Positions 2,515 to 38,389 of a stretch of DNA of 38,389 nt are shown piece by piece. Below the pieces are notes generated by a model, which saw nothing but the letters and a program-made list of their open reading frames with translations, had not been told where the DNA came from and searched no databases. Source of the stretch: an uncultured Muribaculaceae bacterium. GTDB lineage: Bacteria > Bacteroidota > Bacteroidia > Bacteroidales > Muribaculaceae. The translations under genes were made by a program, and so were the position numbers. Positions within the stretch are counted from its first letter, which is position 1. Every line of letters starts with the position of its first letter. The DNA lies in the NCBI GenBank assembly GCA_947625935.1, contig CANQQE010000030.1, positions 1-38,389 on the forward strand, written 5' to 3'.

Positions 2515-3770
2515 ATTCCCAGATCCTTTCTCTCGATAACCCGCGCTTCTCTGCGCCTCATATCGTCCTCAAGCGCATACCGCGCCGCGTCAATCGTATG
2601 GTTGTTCGTGTCGGGATATCCATCTTTAAACCCGTCATTTCCATCAGCCTCCAATTCATAGCTGTAAAATTCCTCCGCCGCGTTCGGACATCTCTCATTG
2701 TCAATTATAATTTCTTCAAGCGACTGCAAAAATTTAATACCGTATTCCACGCTGTCAGGACCTTTTTTCGCGCCCTTCACCTTCAGCCCGTACCCTCGAA
2801 GCTCCGCTATTGATTTCGGCTCGGCGCTGTCGCATATAATACCCTGCCGGTATTTCGTCCGCGCGTTTATCATAGCCGCCGCCTTTGCGTTCGATAATCC
2901 GACCTTGTAAATCTCGTCAAAAATATACAGCCGTTTCCGCTTGCTGTCGTAGTTGCATACAATATACGCGAACGGATCCGCCGCGTAACCGAAGTCTATA
3001 CCGCGCTTTATCCGGTCGAACGCCGCTATTTCCTCGTCGGTTATCCGCCGCATTGTAATATTCGTGAATACCTCGCCGCCCGTACCCGTAACCTCGCCGA
3101 GATACTCATGCTCGTACGCGTCTGGCTTCGTTCGCTTCAAATGCTCCGCCTCGATTATAAACTTCTCGCCGAGCCATCCCGCCGGAACATCAAGATATGT
3201 GCTGTGATGTACCAATCTGTCGCCGCGCTCCGTCAGCACCTCTTTATTTACCCAATTACGCTGAGACTGTGGAGGATTGTACGTGTAAAATATAACAAAC
3301 GCGCTCCCGCCGCGCATTAAGGATTGATTTATCGAGCGTATCTCCGTCATGCCTACGAACTCCGCGACCTCCTCATACCAGATATATTTGATATACCCCT
3401 TCTTTACCTTCGTCGATTTCAGCTTCTGCGGCTTATCCGCCCCGCGAAATAAGATACGCTGTCCCGTCGGAAGATAAACAAGCTCCATCGGGCTTAATTT
3501 CTCCTGCCACAAATGCGCCACGCCGAGCATATCGATAGCCCACAACAGCTGACTGTAAACGCTGTCGCGCAGATTATCCTTGACCTTTCGTATCGCGGCG
3601 GCGTTCGCGTCCGCGTCCTTCATCATGCCTATTATGATTTCAACGCTCGCGAACGTGGATTTCGTTGAACCGCGCCCGCCCTTAAGCCAATAATGAGTAT
3701 GCCGCCCCCGCTTTAAGTCATGATGCACCGAATAAAACGACGGCGCTATCAGTTTGTCAAGCCTCATCAT
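2511..3770 (-). CDS. terL: Terminase large subunit (PBSX/SPP1 class)
   Basis: The packaging motor ATPase and nuclease, about 419 residues. The Walker A-type loop is KGGRGSTKST near residues 30-39 and the Walker B/catalytic carboxylate is YIWYEEVAEF near residues 129-138. The RNase H-like nuclease shows three acidic sites: GIDFGYAADPF (D259), ICDSAEPKS (D314) and NNHTIDAARYALE (D394). It docks on the portal encoded next and receives DNA from TerS just upstream. The start is ATG 3770 or 3776; AAAGGTG in the end of terS is the ribosome site, and the first codons overlap terS by 14 bases, so the two are translationally coupled. Confidence 0.95.
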   Translation of the reverse strand: MMRLDKLIAPSFYSVHHDLKRGRHTHYWLKGGRGSTKSTFASVEIIIGMMKDADANAAAIRKVKDNLRDSVYSQLLWAIDMLGVAHLWQEKLSPMELVYLPTGQRILFRGADKPQKLKSTKVKKGYIKYIWYEEVAEFVGMTEIRSINQSLMRGGSAFVIFYTYNPPQSQRNWVNKEVLTERGDRLVHHSTYLDVPAGWLGEKFIIEAEHLKRTKPDAYEHEYLGEVTGTGGEVFTNITMRRITDEEIAAFDRIKRGIDFGYAADPFAYIVCNYDSKRKRLYIFDEIYKVGLSNAKAAAMINARTKYRQGIICDSAEPKSIAELRGYGLKVKGAKKGPDSVEYGIKFLQSLEEIIIDNERCPNAAEEFYSYELEADGNDGFKDGYPDTNNHTIDAARYALEDDMRRREARVIERKDLGI

Positions 3771-4218
3771 TTTCATCACCTTTCACCGCGCATTCGGGAA
3801 TGTTATCAATGATCTGCACCGGAACCGCTCCGTCGATCTGCGCCTTATCCGTAAACATAGCATAATATTTCCCAAGCAGTTCCGCCGCCTTCAATCTGTC
3901 CTTTGCCGACGGCAAGCCCTTTCTGAACCTCTGCTCACCGTCGCCGACAAATATAGGGATATTCTCAACCTCGCTTTCGCCGCGCATAACCTCGGTCAAA
4001 AACTCTATAACCTCATTGCGTTCGGCGGTCTTTTCCTCATGCTGCCGCCGCTCCCACTCATCGACCGCCGCTCTTACGTCCTCGTCGTTATGCAGTAACG
4101 TATACGCCCGCTGTTTTGCGTAGGCTTCGGAATATCCCGCCGCAATAGCGGCTCTCGCGCCGTTGCGGTCTATTATGTATTCCTCAAAAAATCGCTTTTT
4201 CTTTCCCGTCAGCGTCAT
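3757..4218 (-). CDS. terS: Terminase small subunit
   Basis: A 153-residue DNA-recognition subunit of the packaging terminase (Terminase_2 type). The N-terminal helix-turn-helix is visible in KKRFFEEYIIDRNGARAAIAAGYSEAYAKQ, residues 6-36, with the family landmark AAIAAGYS. A central helical segment (LLHNDEDVRAAVDEW) and a C-terminal stretch that would bind TerL follow. ATG 4218 is chosen because AAGGGGG lies seven bases upstream; an upstream in-frame start would run through that ribosome site. It is the first gene of the late operon, with a 250-base leader and the probable late promoter upstream. Confidence 0.9.
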   Translation of the reverse strand: MTLTGKKKRFFEEYIIDRNGARAAIAAGYSEAYAKQRAYTLLHNDEDVRAAVDEWERRQHEEKTAERNEVIEFLTEVMRGESEVENIPIFVGDGEQRFRKGLPSAKDRLKAAELLGKYYAMFTDKAQIDGAVPVQIIDNIPECAVKGDENDEA

Positions 4219-4476
4219 TCCGCCGCCCCCTTTCAATCGCAAATATAAAAAGGATTACCTCGTCCCGCCGCCGCACGAATTTCTTCCATTATCGCGCCCG
4301 CGCGCGTACGCGGCAAGGTAGTCCAAAGTAGACCAAGCAAAAAGCGTACCGCCGCCGATACGCCTTTTATTAAAATTTACCCACCCCTGTCCCGTTGCCG
4401 TTCCTCAGTTAGCAACCACCATTTCACCTGAAAAAAGAAGCATTTCTACGAAATATTCACTGCTATCTCATTTTGA
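4219..4476 (-). other. Leader region of the late operon (no convincing gene)
   Basis: About 260 bases between the probable late promoter and terS. It holds a hairpin with flanking A and T runs at 4339-4368 and a short direct repeat GTAGTCC/GTAGACC at 4319-4334. An 18-codon frame starts at ATG about 4284 and stops within the terS ribosome site; it has no ribosome site of its own and I do not call it. The hairpin before terS could attenuate late transcription. Confidence 0.5.
4339..4368. terminator. Bidirectional hairpin upstream of terS
   Basis: GCGTA (4344-4348) pairs with TACGC (4359-4363), flanked by AAAAA on one side and TTTT on the other, so it can act in both directions. It lies downstream of the candidate late promoter, which would require antitermination or tolerate partial read-through. 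Confidence 0.5.
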
Positions 4477-4510
4477 ATTGTAACACAGAAAAAACGAACA
4501 AAACGAACAA
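4477..4510 (-). promoter_or_regulatory. Probable activated late promoter with tandem 9-bp repeats
   Basis: On the minus strand TGTTACAAT (TACAAT at 4482-4477) is an extended -10 box, but no -35 hexamer stands 17 bases upstream. In its place are two perfect tandem copies of TTGTTCGTT (4510-4502 and 4501-4493). Missing -35 plus tandem repeats is the layout of a promoter needing an activator; the late regulator encoded at 4817-5230 is the obvious candidate. Function is inferred. Confidence 0.5.
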
Positions 4511-4538
4511 CTTTTAAAATTTCGTAAAAAATTTTTTA

Positions 4539-4567
4539 TTGAACAGTAACACAATTTATGATATACT
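4539..4567 (+). promoter_or_regulatory. Promoter of the small hydrophobic peptide gene
   Basis: TTGAAC (4539-4544), 17 bases, then TATACT (4562-4567) preceded by TG one base upstream (extended -10). Transcription should start near 4574 and give a leader of about 68 bases before the ATG at 4642. Confidence 0.75.
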
Positions 4568-4641
4568 GATTATAGGTAATAGAGAAATCTATACGACCTT
4601 GATAACCGGAGCGGGGCGGTCTGTTTCGGAAAGGACGCATC

Positions 4642-4704
4642 ATGAGCGAAGTAACAATACAGCTTATAATTATTTTGCTCATTGTATACTGGATAAAGAA
4701 ATAA
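4642..4704 (+). CDS. 20-residue hydrophobic peptide, probable type I toxin
   Basis: The frame encodes MSEVTIQLIIILLIVYWIKK: a short polar start, one membrane-spanning stretch (residues 5-18) and a basic Lys-Lys tail. This is the build of membrane-acting type I toxins (for example TxpA, BsrG and Fst families), though I cannot assign a named family. AAAGGA lies six bases before the ATG, and a near-consensus promoter stands at 4539-4567. The gene points against the flanking minus-strand operon. In the mRNA, GGGCGGT in the leader (4614-4620) is complementary to ACCGCCC just after the stop (4704-4710), a long-range 5'-3' pairing of the kind that holds type I toxin mRNAs inactive. A convergent antisense transcript covers the 3' end. 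Confidence 0.6.
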   Translation: MSEVTIQLIIILLIVYWIKK

Positions 4705-4805
4705 CCGCCCTATCTCACAAATAGGACGGTTATGGGGTAGACATATTTCGGTCTACGCATAATAATCTTAGTGGAATAGAAACAGATTTGTTTCCGCTCC
4801 CGTTA
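4693..4805 (-). ncRNA. Probable antisense RNA (antitoxin) to the hydrophobic peptide mRNA
   Basis: A minus-strand promoter (4839-4811) should start an RNA near 4805. It would fold into three hairpins: GAAACA/TGTTTC (4779-4794), GTAGAC/GTCTAC (4737-4756), and a 13-base stem with one mismatch (4701-4713 with 4721-4733). The last is followed on the minus strand by the T-rich run TTATTTCTTTAT and so is an intrinsic terminator for this direction only. The RNA of about 110 nt would be complementary to the stop codon and 3' region of the peptide mRNA. The same promoter could instead help late transcription if the terminator is bypassed. Confidence 0.55.
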
Positions 4806-4810
4806 TCTAA

Positions 4811-4839
4811 ACTATATCACATTTCTTTTTTTTTGTCAA
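4811..4839 (-). promoter_or_regulatory. Promoter of the antisense RNA
   Basis: On the minus strand TTGACA (4839-4834), 17 bases, TATAGT (4816-4811) with TG one base before the -10. It is embedded in the last codons and stop of the late regulator gene (4817-5230), so part of its sequence is also coding. Confidence 0.7.
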
Positions 4840-5230
4840 CAACTTTCTCCAAATATCTATTATGTATCATTCGCACCCCATCGGCGGTATTCCCGCCGCC
4901 TATCTTAACCGCGATCCTCTGCCAGCTCCACCGCCGCTTCCCCGCTATATACCTATACCGAAATATCCGCCGCGTTTCGCTGTCGGGAATATTGTCAATA
5001 AAATCCTCGATCCGCCGCTTCCGACGTTTTAGCTCATTCTGCCGTTTCAAAAGACGCGAATTATCGCCCGAGCCCTCAAGCCCTTCAATGCTCACGGTAT
5101 GTGAGGTGTACGGAAATTCCGAACTACTGCCGCGCACGCTATCGCGGAGCGTACTCTCCCGAATACGCTCCTCATTTTCCACGATCTCCGCAGCAATACT
5201 CCTATACTGCAATAATTCCTTTTTCGTCAT
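4817..5230 (-). CDS. Late transcription regulator-like protein (ArpU/RinA/DUF1492 type)
   Basis: A 137-residue basic protein. The N-terminal half is helical and charged (LLQYRSIAAEIVENEERIRE; later RLLKRQNELKRRKRRIEDFI). The C-terminal third reads IPDSETRRIFRYRYIAGKRRWSWQRIAVKIGGGNTADGVR, the pattern of sigma-70 region 4-like helix-turn-helix proteins of the ArpU/RinA/DUF1492 group, which activate late genes of Gram-positive phages. Its place as last early gene before terminase fits that job. ATG 5230 is chosen for AAAGGGGA seven bases upstream. It likely acts on the repeat-bearing promoter at 4477-4510. Family level is fairly secure; the target is inferred. Confidence 0.75.
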   Translation of the reverse strand: MTKKELLQYRSIAAEIVENEERIRESTLRDSVRGSSSEFPYTSHTVSIEGLEGSGDNSRLLKRQNELKRRKRRIEDFIDNIPDSETRRIFRYRYIAGKRRWSWQRIAVKIGGGNTADGVRMIHNRYLEKVVDKKKEM

Positions 5231-5279
5231 ACAAACGTCCCCTTTCCACGCAAAATAAAGCCGCACACTCCGCCGACCG

Positions 5280-6017
5280 CTATTCCTCGTCCTTCACCTT
5301 TACCAGCTCGTATTCCTGATATGTAAATCCGTCTATGTCCTTATATCCCGTAAACACGTTTTCAATTTTGTATCTATACCCGTATTCCCGGCACTTCGGC
5401 GGCTTCGGATTTTCGCGGATACTGTTCATATGTACAACTCGTTTAATTTCTTTTGGCTTCCTGAGATTTCGCGAATGTCCGAATTTCTGATACGTCAAAT
5501 TCTTATGCTTACCGCCGTCCAAGAAATATTTCACAAGATTTCCGCTCTCCATGTCGGTTATCTCTTTCGGATCTGTTACAATTCCGTATTCCTTCCAGTA
5601 ACCGAGCAGCATTGATATAATTTCGGGACTGGTATTCCTGATAAGTAAATGATGATGCGCCCTCTGCGTATCGCTCCCCTCAGTCACCTTATACCACACA
5701 AACGGAATGTTCCGCCGCTTAAGCCGCTTCTGCATTTTGCTCAAAACCTTGCTGAGTATCTTATCCGCTTCTTCAGGTTCATGCCATTTTTTATACGTCA
5801 GCGTTACCCAGTAATCTCCCACGTCGAAATTCTCATAACAATCATGCTTAATTTTCAAATACGCCTGCCGCTTATTCCGAGCCTTTTTCCCTTCGCCTGA
5901 AATACTCACCCGAACGCCGCGCTTCTTTTTTGAGTTCGAGGGATTATAATAAAAGCATTTTGAATAATAAATAAACTCTCTGTTTTTTGTTATCACATGA
6001 TTACGTAACACAAGCAT
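5280..6017 (-). CDS. HUH-type replication/nicking endonuclease (rolling-circle Rep-like)
   Basis: A 245-residue protein with the three motifs of rolling-circle initiators: motif 1 YWVTLTYKKWHEP (residues 69-81), motif 2 with the metal-binding histidines in RAHHHLLI (H121-H123), and motif 3 LVKYFLDGGKHKN with the probable catalytic Tyr164. The order and spacing resemble the G2P/ORF2-like Rep group of small phages and plasmids. Such enzymes nick one strand and stay bound through the tyrosine. Finding one in a tailed phage that also encodes a DnaD-like initiator is notable. ATG 6017 has GAGGGA about seven bases upstream; a terminator hairpin (6067-6107) separates it from the gene before, so it may have its own regulation. 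Confidence 0.75.
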   Translation of the reverse strand: MLVLRNHVITKNREFIYYSKCFYYNPSNSKKKRGVRVSISGEGKKARNKRQAYLKIKHDCYENFDVGDYWVTLTYKKWHEPEEADKILSKVLSKMQKRLKRRNIPFVWYKVTEGSDTQRAHHHLLIRNTSPEIISMLLGYWKEYGIVTDPKEITDMESGNLVKYFLDGGKHKNLTYQKFGHSRNLRKPKEIKRVVHMNSIRENPKPPKCREYGYRYKIENVFTGYKDIDGFTYQEYELVKVKDEE

Positions 6018-17053: not shown

Positions 17054-17773
17054 ATGAAGAAAATAGTATCATTGGCACTATCCGCAATCATGTTGTTATC
17101 AATCACCGCCTGCGGCAACAACGCCGAGCTGGAACAGCTCCGCAAGGAAAATGAAGAATTAAAGCAACAGCTGACAACTCAACCGCCTTCAACTAAAGCT
17201 CCGGGAGAGGCATTAAAAGCCGAAGATGTTTGCTCCGTTAAGGAACTTAAATGGACAAAGCACTATAGCAATGCCGTTAATTATCATGATGATTTAATTA
17301 TAACAAATACGTATAATACTGCCTTACAATATAACGTAGATATGCTGTTTTATGATGCTGACGGTAATGTAATAGGTACGGATGATTACACAACCCATCC
17401 GGTGTTAAACGGTCAAAGCACTTATGTGAATTTGTATCTTGACGATGCCGAATTTAGCTCTGTTGAATATACGATCACACCTAAGCGCTCATCCTCCACG
17501 CCAATAGATATTTCCAAGCTAACATACGAACTATCTAATGGCGGAAACGACACAAAATATGTGCTGAGTATGACAAATAATGATACCGTTGATTACTACA
17601 ATACAGCAGCCTATATTGTTTTTTATAACGGTGATGAAATAGTAGAGGTTGAGTATCAAAATGTCGCTAATTCCGACTATACACTTGCCGCAGGAGCAAC
17701 AGAATACGAAGATTTTTCATTTGATGATTTGTATACTGATTATGAAATATACCCTATAGGTCGAATAAAATAA
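17054..17773 (+). CDS. Surface lipoprotein in the lysogeny module (candidate superinfection exclusion)
   Basis: A 239-residue lipoprotein. The signal peptide MKKIVSLALSAIMLLSITAC ends in lipobox ITAC with Cys20 as the lipidated residue, followed by a short coiled coil (AELEQLRKENEELKQQL) and a Pro/Thr linker. Two similar beta-rich domains follow, about residues 57-145 and 150-239, each with the pattern ..L.ITNxYxxxxxYN..xxFYxxxGxxIxxxxY.., ending in LYTDYEIYPIGRIK, like FxLYD-type immunoglobulin-like domains. It follows the repressor by 21 bases (AAAGGAGG) and so should be made in lysogens. A lipoprotein at this position excludes other phages in Streptococcus phage TP-J34 (Ltp); this one is unrelated in sequence, so that role is inference. 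Confidence 0.8.
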   Translation: MKKIVSLALSAIMLLSITACGNNAELEQLRKENEELKQQLTTQPPSTKAPGEALKAEDVCSVKELKWTKHYSNAVNYHDDLIITNTYNTALQYNVDMLFYDADGNVIGTDDYTTHPVLNGQSTYVNLYLDDAEFSSVEYTITPKRSSSTPIDISKLTYELSNGGNDTKYVLSMTNNDTVDYYNTAAYIVFYNGDEIVEVEYQNVANSDYTLAAGATEYEDFSFDDLYTDYEIYPIGRIK

Positions 17774-19636: not shown

Positions 19637-20368
19637 TCACACTTTCATCCCAACCAACTTCGCAATATACTTAGCCAGCCGATACATCACAACGCACACC
19701 CAAAGCTTCGTATTACTCAGCCCGAGCCCGTCGCCCGTACCTTGAATAATACCCTTATCCACGCACCACTTCACAGCCTCATGCGCCCATGCGGGCATAT
19801 TCTTGTCGACGTAGTTGTAAATCATGGTATCCTGCTGCTTTTCGAGCTTCTCAACCCGCGCCGCAAGCGCGTTATATTCCTCTCTCGACACTTCGTCCAC
19901 CTCCTTCTCCGCCGCATACGCGCGGTAATTCTGTTTTATGTCCTCCAACGGGTAATTCCTGCCCGGACAATCGCTGTCGCCGATTTCCTTGTGTCCGACT
20001 ATTTGCGCGTTCGGATAGTAGCAATCCTTCAGATACGCCAATAAGCGGCAAATAGCTCTTTTCTGCTCGTCCGGCATGGTTTCAGTAGAATACTTTCCCT
20101 CCGCGCAAATCCCGATCGAGCGGTTATTCATGCCGTATACGTGCGCGCCCTGCTTGTCGAGCGGTCTGCCGCGATAAATTTTGCCGTCCTTACGCACGAA
20201 GAAATGATACCCGATACCCGACCAGCCGTTCTCTTTGTGCCACTGGTCTACCTGCTCCGCCGTGCAGCTCGAAGCCTCGGCATGATGAAGCGCTATGTAG
20301 TCGGTTCTCGCGCGGTTCGCAAGCGCACCGTTCCAGTGCCAATTAGGACTGATAATAATTACTGACAT
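19637..20368 (-). CDS. Endolysin, N-acetylmuramoyl-L-alanine amidase (Amidase_2)
   Basis: A 243-residue lysin that cuts the amide bond between muramic acid and peptide stem. The amidase_2/PGRP fold spans residues 1-150: IALHHAEASSC (zinc His28), WSGIGYHFFVRKDGKIYRGRP with the family YHF motif, and GHKEIGDSDCPG with zinc ligands His126 and Cys134. A short coiled segment follows (YNALAARVEKLEKQQ). The last 55 residues, AWAHEAVKWCVDKGIIQGTGDGLGLSNTKLWVCVVMYRLAKYI, form an SLH-like cell-wall binding unit. No signal peptide is seen, so export depends on the holin encoded next to it. Confidence 0.94.
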   Translation of the reverse strand: MSVIIISPNWHWNGALANRARTDYIALHHAEASSCTAEQVDQWHKENGWSGIGYHFFVRKDGKIYRGRPLDKQGAHVYGMNNRSIGICAEGKYSTETMPDEQKRAICRLLAYLKDCYYPNAQIVGHKEIGDSDCPGRNYPLEDIKQNYRAYAAEKEVDEVSREEYNALAARVEKLEKQQDTMIYNYVDKNMPAWAHEAVKWCVDKGIIQGTGDGLGLSNTKLWVCVVMYRLAKYIAKLVGMKV

Positions 20369-26679: not shown

Positions 26680-29600
26680 TCAACCTCCGAGCCCCGCCAT
26701 GTATTCAACGTCATATCTGTCCACCGAGTAAATTGTAACAGTCCTGTTATCCGAGAAATTCTGCTGTTCCATTTTGAAATCAAGACTTTTTATCGCCGTG
26801 ATAATCTCCTGCAGCGTCCTTAGCGTATTATCGCTCGACCGCGATATGTTTGTCGTAATCTCTCGCACATATCCGCCCACGTCGATATCCGTATTCTCGG
26901 CTATGCCCTTGATAAAATCAACCTTCGCATTCTCCAGTTCATCATATTCCGCCTGCAGATCCTCAATAACCGCGTTGTTGCGAACCTCAAGCTGATATAG
27001 CTCCTCCTCGCGCTGTGCGTCCTTGTACTGTTCGAGCAGGTCTTTATAATGCTCCTGCCCTTTGTCCGTAACCGCGCCCTCGAAAATTGCGAGCTGATGT
27101 TCAAGATCAGCCATATCAACGGCTCTGTCCTCGACCTCCCACGACGCCCGAAGCTCCGACTCCTGATCCGAAAACTTCTTTTCCAATTCTCGGATATATT
27201 CGGACTGCGTATCAAGCATATCGTCATACGCTTCCGCCGCCGCGTCCCAGCGATCGTGGTCGATTTCCTTCATTTCCTCGTTGAATTTCCGAAAATCTAT
27301 AATACCGTTCGCGTAATAATCGCGCGTATACGCTTCTCGTCGGTCAAGCGCGGCAAAATAGCCGTCGTTATCCATAGCGTAATACTTGAGTTGTTCATCA
27401 GTCCAGTCCAGCGAATTATCCTTACGATAGTCATATGCCTGTTCGCCAAATTCTTTTAGCTTCTCCTGACCTTCTTCCCATGTGATTATACCGGCAGCCA
27501 CATCAGCATTAATTCTGTCGCGGACACGATTAAAAGCCGTAATCGGATCGTCGCCATAGTCCGCCCAGTCGTTAAAATATGAGCGTTCATCAAACCACGC
27601 ATCCGATTGTTTCATCTGCTCGTCAAGCTGATCTCGCAATGTATCAATCTTTTCATCGTTTATCTCCGCGATACCTTCTATATACTCGCGGTGATTTATA
27701 ATCCCCTGCTCGTAATATTCCTGTGTATACGCCGCCATACGATCAAGTCCGGCAATATAATCGTCCTCGCTCATGCCGCGATATTTTTCTTCATGTTCGA
27801 GCCAGTTCTTGGACTGTTCTATCTGCGCGTTATACATATCCGCGCCGAGGTCGGAAATAATGTCGGTATATTCCTCCCACGTAAGCCGCCCCGCCTCAAA
27901 TTCCTCGAGGTTTCGCGCTCGAACTCTGTCGAACGCCGCGATAGCGGTGTCTCCGTATTCTTCCCAGTCGTTGAGCGCCGTCCTGTCGTCGATCCACGCC
28001 GCCGAGCGGTCGTTCAATTCCTCGTTTATTTCGCGCTGGAGCGAATAGATCTCCTCGGCAATATCCGCCGCGTCCTTCTCGTTGTCAACAAACTCCTTCG
28101 AAAGCTCGATCCACTTTTCAAGCTCCTCCGAGGTAGTAACCGCGTGAATTTTTGTGTAGTGCGTCCAGCTGTCTTTTGCCGCCGTAAACGCGTCGGAGTT
28201 TTCCTTGCCCTCGGCATAATGCGGAATACCGATCCCCGCCATGATCGCCTTAGTCTGCGAAGCCGTATACACCTTCGCGCCCTTCGAGAGCGGCAATACA
28301 ACGTCCCGCCCCTCGGGAATAAACGCTCGTCCGTGGTCTACAACAAGCTCGCGCGGATCAGCCACGCCGCGCTGGTCGTTCACCATAGCCAGCCCGCCGC
28401 CAAAGTAATCAGTACCTGTCGCCTGTTTTGAGAATTTCGCCGTATATACAACGGTTCCCGTAAGAGTCGGAGCAGAGCCGATACCGGAGAAATCCGCGCT
28501 GTAATGAACAATTCCCGAAAGCTCCGGAGCGGCGCCGATACCGCCAAAGTCAGCGGAATAAATAACCGCGCTCGCCAATTCCGGCGCATTTCCTATACCG
28601 CCATAGTCGGCGGTGTATGTAATTGTGCCTGTAACCGTAATATTTACCGCCGCGCTTGCGTCTGCTATATTTGCAACGCTTGAAGCAACCGCCGCCGATA
28701 TTGCGGACGTATCGACCGTTCCGGCTGTGACCGTAACATTCGCGGTAGCATTTATATTGTTTGTTGTAGCCGCGCTAACGATCTGCATTGCCGTTGACAC
28801 CGCCCCGGTAAGCGCCGCAACATTTATTGTTCCCGCCGTTACGGTCACACTCGCGGTTATATTAACCGGCTGTGTCCCGAACGAGCTGACGATCTGCATC
28901 GCGCTCGATACCGCGCCGGTAAGGGCTTCAACATTAATCGTTCCCGCGGTTATATTAACACTTGTCGTAATATCGACTGAATTTCCGGCAATCGGGTTTG
29001 TACCGACCGCGCTTATAAGCTGTGTAGCAGTCGATACCGCCGAGGACAGTGCTTCAACGTTTATAGTCCCGGGCTTGATATTTACGTTGGTTGTGATGTC
29101 AACCGAATTTCCGTTTATCGGATTGGTTCCGACGCCGAGTACATCAGATAAATTTTTTCCTGAACCGCCGCCCGCTCCCCATGTAGGTTTTATCGGTACT
29201 TCCACAGGCTTCGGGTCTGTTGTATTATCTTCACCGTCTACTTTATCTACCGGTTGCGTCTTAGGTTCGTCCGATGGGTCTGTTGTATTATCCTCGCCGT
29301 CTACTTTATCTACATTCTGCTCTGCGTTATCAGGATCCGTTGTATTATCCGCCCCGTCTACTTTATCTACATTCTGCTCTGCGTTATCAGGATCCGTTGT
29401 ATTATCCGCCCCGTCTACTTTATCGACATTTTGCTCTGCGTTATCAGGATCCGTTGTATTATCCGCCCCGTCTACTTTATCTACATTTTGCTCTGCGTCG
29501 TCAGGCTCGGTCGTATTATCCTCGCCGTCCTCTTTGTTGATTTTTATTGTATAGTTTCCCTCTTCATCCAGCCCGAGAGAGCCGAGCAACCCGTCTTTGC

Positions 29601-37551: not shown

Positions 37552-38389
37552 TCTTACTTACTACCTCCATAATACGTTCGGTACGTTCGTCAAAATCTTC
37601 TTTTTTCCATGAAGTTCTGAATACCCACTGCTCCGGATTTTGCGTGATAACACTCACTCCGTCCCGCGAATAATACGCCTTTCTTGTACCATGCCACTGT
37701 GAAAACATAACTAAAGCGTCATTTTTGTACCGCCTTACTTCATCATCTGTAATTTGACGTTCTTTCATTCTGTACATGATATGATATGGATCTCGGCGTG
37801 AAACTTCGTCTTTCAAGATATAAGCAGAAACATTATCCGGCGGCAGTACTTTACCGTTATCAATTCCTTCGTTCTTTAAATCTCTGTATATTTTATAATG
37901 CGTAAATTCCGCTGTCGGTTCTGATTTCTTATATCGATAAAATCCCTTTAATTCCTCATATTCCGCCCTATCTCCATTATACTTCAATTCCTGGAATTTG
38001 TCAAATGAACTCGGCACATTTTTCCGTCCGAGCACATCCTGATACTGCTTATACTGCAATTTATCCGCGCTCTTGCGGCTATCCTTCCGCTTCGCTAAAT
38101 CCAACGCCTCCCGCTGCTCCGGCGAAAGGCTCTCCTTCCACGTCGTATAATCCAAATCGCCGTCAACATAAACGCTTTTTCCCGACAAAGGATCACGCGC
38201 GCTGCGCTTTATGTACGGCTTATTCATAGTCGTGGTACACCTGCATCTCGGATGCATACTCGGATAATTCACGCCCTCGCGCGCCTCCGACAGCTTGAAC
38301 ACCTTCCCGTCAAGCGCGCCGCACGTTTCGCACGTCCTGTCGTCGAGCGTGGCGAGGTATTTGTATTCGGTAATACCCAAATCCTCATA
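37541..38389 (-). CDS. Minor head protein MuF (C-terminal part) with nuclease-like toxin domain
   Basis: This is the 3' part of the 535-residue gene starting at 836. Residues 273-304 carry the MuF metal-like cluster: TCETC (C273, C276), then HPRCRC (H299, C302, C304), close to the end of classical MuF proteins. About 230 more residues follow. The last 95 (from about residue 440), with DPYHIMYRMKERQITDDEVRRYKNDALV, GTRKAYYSRDGVSVIT and VFRTSWKKEDFDER, have the order His, Arg/Lys-rich strand, Ser and Thr-Ser-Trp seen in phage-borne Barnase/EndoU/ColicinE5-D/RelE-like nuclease domains. MuF proteins with such toxic C-termini are known from temperate Firmicutes phages. The nuclease assignment is by pattern and needs a profile search. 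Confidence 0.8.
   Translation of the reverse strand, partial: YEDLGITEYKYLATLDDRTCETCGALDGKVFKLSEAREGVNYPSMHPRCRCTTTMNKPYIKRSARDPLSGKSVYVDGDLDYTTWKESLSPEQREALDLAKRKDSRKSADKLQYKQYQDVLGRKNVPSSFDKFQELKYNGDRAEYEELKGFYRYKKSEPTAEFTHYKIYRDLKNEGIDNGKVLPPDNVSAYILKDEVSRRDPYHIMYRMKERQITDDEVRRYKNDALVMFSQWHGTRKAYYSRDGVSVITQNPEQWVFRTSWKKEDFDERTERIMEVVSKNVK
38313..38389. repeat. Terminal direct repeat (second copy)
   Basis: Identical to bases 1-77; see that entry. It should be counted once in the circular genome. Confidence 0.95.

Follow-up and report, generated by a model that had tools for sequence, protein, structure and literature searches.

A probable type I toxin-antitoxin locus of convergent layout, encoding a 20-residue peptide, in a temperate phage from an uncultured Muribaculaceae bacterium

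The window, meaning the whole stretch of 38,389 nucleotides analysed here (assembly GCA_947625935.1, contig CANQQE010000030.1), appears to be a whole temperate phage, as it encodes an S24-type repressor, a tyrosine integrase and a Cro-type HTH gene. An exact direct repeat of 77 bases at its two ends (1-77 and 38313-38389) indicates a circular assembly. On the minus strand, a replication initiator is followed by a transcriptional regulator (4817-5266) and then by TerS and TerL. This initiator (5280-6017, minus strand) is of the REP_ORF2-G2P type (PF23343, E 5.4e-11), here in a tailed phage. Elsewhere in the window, a tandem repeat at 29282-29529 (57-base unit, 4.4 copies, 93% match) encodes a repeated DNTTDPDNAEQNVDKVDGA stretch within a minus-strand gene of 2096 residues that is tape-measure-like by its length. 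Between the repressor and the integrase, the plus-strand gene at 17054-17773 has a lipoprotein-like start and no Pfam match, and is a possible lysogenic-conversion or exclusion gene. The product of the minus-strand gene at 19637-20368 is endolysin-like (Amidase_2) and matches S-layer homology close to its C-terminus. The cassette described here lies in the gap between the regulator gene and TerS, on the strand opposite to those genes (Table 1).

Table 1. Features of the cassette and its neighbours in the window. The stretch named L127 comes from a related phage.
Feature	Position	Strand	Basis
Small terminase subunit TerS, next minus-strand gene	3757..4242	-	PF03592, E 2.3e-24
AAAAACGAACAAAACGAACAAC, candidate regulator site between toxin promoter and terminase	4490..4511		sequence; unchanged in L127
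Toxin mRNA promoter TTGAAC-17-TATACT, TG before -10	4539..4567	+	9/12; 25/29 bases kept in L127
Toxin mRNA 5' end, small hairpin (putative start near 4574)	4574..4600	+	predicted fold; 27/27 identical in L127
Leader element GATAACCGGAGCGGGGCGGTCTGTTTC	4601..4627	+	can pair with stop-codon hairpin and with mRNA 3' end
Ribosome site GGAAAGGA	4628..4635	+	first seven bases invariant in 14/14 aligned sequences
Toxin-like peptide MSEVTIQLIIILLIVYWIKK, 20 residues (ATG 4642, TAA ending 4704)	4642..4704	+	relatives under purifying selection in this frame
Predicted antitoxin RNA, about 115 nt (putative ends)	4691..4805	-	promoter and terminator; fold
Stop-codon hairpin with stem 4733-4701 followed by TTTCTTT, predicted terminator of the antitoxin	4701..4733	-	sequence scan, fold
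mRNA 3' segment complementary to leader (GAAACAG, CCGCTCC, GTTATC); antitoxin start region when read on minus strand	4779..4807	+	inverted repeat I2; 28/29 identical in L127
Antitoxin promoter TTGACA-17-TATAGT with TG	4811..4839	-	11/12; 4808-4839 32/32 identical in L127
Phage transcriptional regulator gene	4817..5266	-	PHROG 36 'transcriptional regulator', E 9.8e-16; antitoxin -35 within its 3' end

The leader, the ribosome site and the hydrophobic 20-residue peptide with a Lys-Lys end all lie where the initial annotation had placed them, and the strong minus-strand promoter that it described was also recovered (11/12), with a -35 element falling in the final codons of the regulator gene, as it does in the phage of L127. 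The plus-strand promoter, likewise annotated as strong, is present but moderate (9/12), and is outscored by the antitoxin promoter. A TTTCTTT run stands 3' of the stop-codon hairpin on the minus strand only, so that a terminator spanning the stop codon is predicted in that direction only; this agrees with the annotated one-way terminator and, at the level of sequence, with the annotated 3' overlap of the two RNAs. At one position of the hairpin, the plus-strand sequence has a C-A mismatch where the minus-strand sequence has a G-U pair. The antitoxin RNA is predicted to fold at -37.0 kcal/mol (z -4.3), with equally stable folds in 1 of 200 shuffles. A plus-strand terminator for the toxin mRNA was looked for in the window and in L127 and was not found; the 3' end of the mRNA, and hence pairing between its 5' and 3' ends, is therefore only assumed. 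In simple scans around the locus, there were 10 promoter-like sites compared with 4.3 ± 2.3 expected, and 2 terminator-like sites compared with 2.5 expected from shuffles, so that terminators are not above chance. By themselves such scans are weak evidence, and the case is carried by the comparative data.

Upstream of the cassette, ACGAAC occurs twice, nine bases apart, within 4490-4511, between the toxin promoter and a TACAAT-like -10 element on the minus strand (4482-4477) upstream of TerS. This stretch is a candidate binding site of the late regulator, which would set the toxin and late promoters back to back. In addition, a direct repeat is formed by TTGAATTGTAACACA (4473-4487) and TTGAACAGTAACACA (4539-4553), which are 87% identical, with the toxin -35 element inside the second copy. 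A possible link between the antitoxin and the lytic switch, as raised in the initial annotation, is suggested by position. The antitoxin terminator could also end regulator transcripts, so that lytic read-through would add antisense RNA.

The peptide (best 13-residue mean hydropathy 2.84) belongs to a family of at least 15 copies in at least 13 loci, with the window counted and 13 distinct frames among them, the close relatives of which came from a pattern scan of bacterial genomes. In the set of 15 copies, pN/pS is 0.35 in the peptide frame compared with 0.65 and 5.17 in the other two frames, a substitution pattern indicating that the frame is real and that purifying selection is confined to it. 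Because this set was chosen for exactly 20 residues, its constant peptide length is no evidence; in a free-length search, the five MSExT representatives likewise had 20 residues. Tandem pairs of copies are found in L125 and L141. The scanned neighbours of L125, L163 and L135 (eight proteins) are non-phage genes, and the L134 copy lies near a prophage tail gene. Since the window peptide matched no Pfam family and had sub-significant matches only in PHROGs and NCBIfam, such loci are easily missed. A match to PHROG 9048 (E 0.025) and weak matches to NCBIfam and Hol_Tox were taken as chance. A tblastn search with the 20-residue peptide in phage records returned no match, a Hol_Tox search of the window's own genome returned none above the cut-off, and no prior description of the 20-residue family was found in the literature searched.

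In the one related phage found, L127, the cassette occupies the corresponding site next to the same regulator gene and its peptide frame is intact, which is the opposite of the frame loss in homologous phages that the initial annotation had named as a refutation. Over a 5-kb part, L127 and the window align in six pieces of 157-695 bases (about 2.0 kb in total) at 80-91% identity, and their TerS genes are partly different. Identity is 34/35 in the leader and ribosome site (4601-4635), 51/63 in the frame, 24/33 in the stop hairpin, 28/43 in the next hairpin and 107/121 in the regulator gene. The leader (34/35), its 3' complement (28/29) and the antitoxin promoter (32/32) are thus more conserved than the adjoining protein gene. 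With conservation highest in these three elements and not in the frame, the cassette could instead be an RNA regulatory element of the early/late boundary, in which hairpin and antisense RNA act on regulator or terminase transcripts, the frame being incidental; the position of the hairpin downstream of the regulator gene, as a possible terminator, would fit as well. Purifying selection in the frame argues against this explanation, as does the presence of the same scaffold with different peptides, some of them in non-phage surroundings (see below), and we consider it highly improbable.

A blastn search with the cassette in 199 genomes of the family (27 matching at E <= 0.1) returned, besides the window, only short matches judged to be chance; of 398 family genomes, a single one contained the stop-hairpin pattern, and it was that of the window; an Rfam scan gave two sub-threshold matches; and a TerS query in viral contigs gave 11 candidate stretches without a relative among them. 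Remote relatives of the regulator (L041-L043, 36-43% identity) have no such frame within 900 bases downstream, and among 393 genomes of the order the regulator was found in its own genome only. From these two observations, the cassette is presumably an accessory of this phage line.

Among the loci collected more widely, at least 232 stop-hairpin motifs were found, and at least 160 of these have a hydrophobic frame with a ribosome site that ends in the hairpin (72 of the 232 had no suitable frame). By an automatic filter that dropped 63 of the 160 as redundant, the window included, at least 97 non-redundant scaffold loci remain, of which a few, such as L201, are doubtful; their peptides have 20-35 residues, and 20-28 residues in 87 of the 97. 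Three of the pattern searches required GGCGGT and the first arm of the stop hairpin, and one also required part of the second arm; the presence of GGCGGT and of the hairpin arm in those loci is therefore no evidence. In a search without the leader requirement, GGCGGT was found at all nine toxin-like places (about five distinct), after four of 13 places had been set aside: the two strands of L032, where the motif is an ordinary terminator, and two truncated places, L034 and the first of L038. Among the 80 matches listed, out of at least 117 from one pattern scan, 76 are named as Clostridia or as groups placed in that class, and the others are three Selenomonas and one named only 'Bacillota'. 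The scaffold offers a means of detecting loci that peptide databases miss. For comparisons between loci, ten of the 97 were excluded for incomplete flanks and the window was put back, giving 88 loci, 86 of which had wide flanks. A terminator-like antitoxin hairpin is present in 87 of the 88, a count made without a shuffled control. In the 86 loci, the antitoxin promoter scores higher than the toxin promoter in 62 and lower in 18 (mean scores 11.5 for the antitoxin, 10.4 for the toxin and 8.1 for shuffled sequence), the stretch scanned being longer for the antitoxin (160 vs. 125 nt).

The initial annotation had noted a GGGCGGT/ACCGCCC match between the leader and the 3' end of the peptide mRNA. 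GGGCGGT (4614-4620) is indeed complementary to ACCGCCC (4704-4710), and the match represents a pairing of the leader with the stop-codon hairpin, of 8 pairs and with a score reached by 4 of 500 simple shuffles. The same pairing, with other sequences used, can be formed in five loci that were identified by peptide similarity only (bsrG of phage SPbeta and L242-L245; combined p 3.0e-6). Against shuffles that preserve base composition only, the bsrG leader forms 11 pairs with the stop-codon region (0/500), and the leaders of L244, L243 and L245 form 10 (0/500), 9 (7/500) and 8 pairs (21/500), respectively; the 8 pairs of L242 (53/500) are not significant. The bsrG gene (L241) is unannotated in its record and was identified by its 38 residues and by a match named BsrG in a sister phage. 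Positions 601-684 of L244 correspond to gene 17 of Brevibacillus phage Osiris, annotated as hypothetical, which is a toxin-like frame with this pairing. Helix P1 of the bsrG mRNA and the long helix of the txpA mRNA, both reported from probing (PMC7430163; PMC3531473), are probably the same pairing of leader and stop hairpin.

The toxin mRNA is predicted to fold tightly: the form spanning 4574-4760 has a fold of -59.3 kcal/mol (z -5.3), and none of 200 shuffles is equally stable. In the full-length form (-80.9 kcal/mol), the stop-hairpin pairing is used together with the outer two of three helices, of 7, 7 and 6 pairs, that are possible between the leader and the 3' end. Of these 20 pairs, which were chosen on the window and are 20/20 there by construction, the other aligned copies (14 of the 15 copies were aligned) can form 20 in L127, L125 (two copies) and L141, 17 in L160 and L163, and 11-12 in seven others, partly because the leader shifts in that alignment. 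In every predicted form long enough to include the beginning of the stop hairpin, the ribosome site is largely open (unpaired probability 0.74-0.80); a hairpin within the frame hides the start codon instead (0.05). When the leader is removed in silico, openness of the ribosome site drops to 0.15, so that the predicted leader pairing frees the site rather than hiding it. This predicted effect speaks against simple silencing by closure, and leader pairing may instead serve stability, metastable folding during transcription or access of the antitoxin.

Within each locus, the leader and the 5' part of the antitoxin are alike in the same sense, which makes the leader complementary to the distal 3' end of the predicted mRNA. 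Across the 88 loci, the alignment score of the leader with its own antitoxin averages 33.0, compared with 19.8 (sd 5.1) for antitoxins of other loci, a level reached by none of 10,000 re-pairings. The own antitoxin is the single best partner in 37 loci and among the top three in 58; when partners are ranked by duplex energy, 32 loci have their own 3' end in first place. For the window leader, its own 3' end ranks first of 88 by alignment and sixth of 88 by duplex energy. Four controls exceed background slightly, by 0.6 points for the reading frame (a level reached by 113 of 2000 re-pairings), 0.8 for the DNA upstream of the promoter (35 of 2000), 0.2 for the direct orientation (691 of 2000) and 1.0 for the DNA further downstream (5 of 2000), and there is thus a small effect of shared composition. 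Direct repeats like those of par were rejected as a description of these loci, as the direct orientation is at background (16.7 vs. 16.5) and the repeat in the window is inverted. The five loci found by peptide similarity show a weaker likeness, reached by 7 (bsrG), 45, 24, 14 and 6 of 300 shuffles that preserve base composition only (combined p 7.6e-4).

Matches that are specific to each locus are not expected from an ancient duplication without constraint. They are expected from gene conversion between the arms of a DNA inverted repeat, which would also make arms match better within than between loci and would require no RNA function; this explanation, which is compatible with a type I module, is in our view unlikely. 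Conversion predicts no direction for the differences between arms, whereas the transition differences are skewed towards retention of a G-U pair in the mRNA (194 retaining, 44 breaking), compared with 475 to 259 for mismatched partners. This objection is weakened in that mismatched partners are biased the same way, less strongly, and the differences are non-independent, so that the p of 7.7e-7 is merely indicative. From the locus-specific match of leader and antitoxin 5' region, a testable model for control of the toxin mRNAs can be drawn. This match is undescribed in the literature searched; the original structure paper on bsrG/SR4, which lay outside that search, may describe it. More tentatively, a hidden RNA chassis may be common to TxpA/BsrG, Hol_Tox and many undescribed loci of Clostridia, in which the peptide is exchangeable and the RNA parts are kept by covariation; the 5' end of the antitoxin would be a copy of the leader that competes for its 3' target, and control would proceed by strand exchange on an mRNA closed between its 5' and 3' ends, not by simple antisense pairing. 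We regard this broader model as doubtful.

Taken together, the locus is very probably a type I toxin-antitoxin module, carried by a temperate phage and with the convergent TxpA/BsrG layout, as the initial annotation had proposed: the relatives keep the peptide, the stop hairpin and the antitoxin promoter, and bsrG of SPbeta has the same architecture. The novelty claimed for it applies to the peptide family but not to the kind of system, which is already known. In the proposed mechanism, the plus-strand mRNA would give a membrane peptide of 20 residues with a single helix, and the stronger minus-strand promoter would keep in excess a short antisense RNA, complementary to the mRNA in its 3' part and terminating over the peptide stop codon. 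By analogy with TxpA/RatA and BsrG/SR4, the two RNAs would pair at their 3' ends and RNase III would cut the duplex, leaving the toxin unmade. Within the mRNA, the leader would pair with the stop hairpin and, if the mRNA extends that far, with its own 3' end. The antitoxin shares the sequence of the leader there; the two would thus compete for a single target, and the antitoxin could bind by strand exchange. If the phage is lost, the antitoxin would decay first and the leftover toxin mRNA would act on the membrane, favouring cells that keep the prophage.

Retention of the prophage is the most likely benefit by analogy with known systems, and such maintenance by type I systems has been demonstrated in Clostridioides difficile (PMC7699646). 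As the scanned neighbours of three copies are non-phage genes, it is unlikely to be the sole role; abortion of infection by other phages is the alternative role that the initial annotation had raised. The peptide might also be a small phage membrane protein with another job, such as holin helper, superinfection exclusion or phage release, whose expression is timed by the antisense RNA; its location in a phage would fit, and a type I locus has been reported to promote the release of prophage Sp5 (PMC8621323). The non-phage neighbours in L125, L163 and L135 and the tandem pairs in L125 and L141 better fit a self-contained toxin module, and the gene is on the other strand from the lytic genes and distant from that of the amidase (19637-20368), which together make another job improbable.

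The type I reading can be placed among systems already described. In hok/sok, long-distance pairing between the 5' and 3' ends inactivates the toxin mRNA, and the antisense RNA of AapA is aimed at the 5' part of its mRNA. By contrast, the predicted antitoxin of the window (4691-4805) covers the 3' part only, and it therefore differs from the AapA/hok type. Inactivation of the toxin mRNA through 5'-3' pairing is also reported for Helicobacter AapA/IsoA (PMC6733600). The par locus (fst/RNA II) of pAD1 differs in that it is described as having direct repeats, compared with the inverted repeat of the window. Prophage systems of C. difficile, including CD0977.1/RCd11, share a hydrophobic peptide with a lysine-rich end, an antisense RNA and a prophage location (PMC6563280); their toxins have 34-59 residues and are likened here by published description, not by sequence.

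The window shows three features of type I loci as far as sequence can tell, namely a hydrophobic peptide with a charged end, an overlapping antisense gene and an antitoxin terminator spanning the stop codon, and its peptide shows no sequence homology to TxpA/BsrG or Hol_Tox toxins by Pfam search. Pairing of the leader with the stop codon region, used here as a further mark of the class, is our own addition drawn from bsrG and its relatives. The same RNA scaffold encodes Hol_Tox (PF16935) peptides in L103 and L101, the two of seven scaffold peptides tested that exceed the model's cut-off (5.3e-11 and 1.7e-9); the window peptide differs in having no match to this model. The txpA/RatA pair of the skin element in Bacillus subtilis is likewise convergent, overlapping at the 3' ends and located in a phage-like element, and the long helix of its mRNA is reported to be cut by RNase III on both sides, at nucleotides 96-98 and 218-220 (PMC3531473). 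Its toxin has 59 residues, and the likeness to the window comes from that published description, not from a comparison of loci. Convergent layout, 3' overlap and the mRNA helix are thus already on record for the TxpA/BsrG type. Closest in architecture is bsrG/SR4 of SPbeta in B. subtilis, with convergent RNAs, a 3' overlap and a stronger antitoxin promoter (PMC6562991; PMC7430163); the two loci also share a leader complementary to the stop-codon region, the likeness of leader and antitoxin 5' region, and a phage location. They differ in that BsrG has 38 residues of other sequence, the stop-hairpin sequence is different, and the Shine-Dalgarno sequence of bsrG is reported to be sequestered, whereas in the window the start codon is predicted to be sequestered instead. 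With the loci described here, the range of TxpA/BsrG-like modules widens to gut Clostridia and to phages of these bacteria, the peptides being very short.
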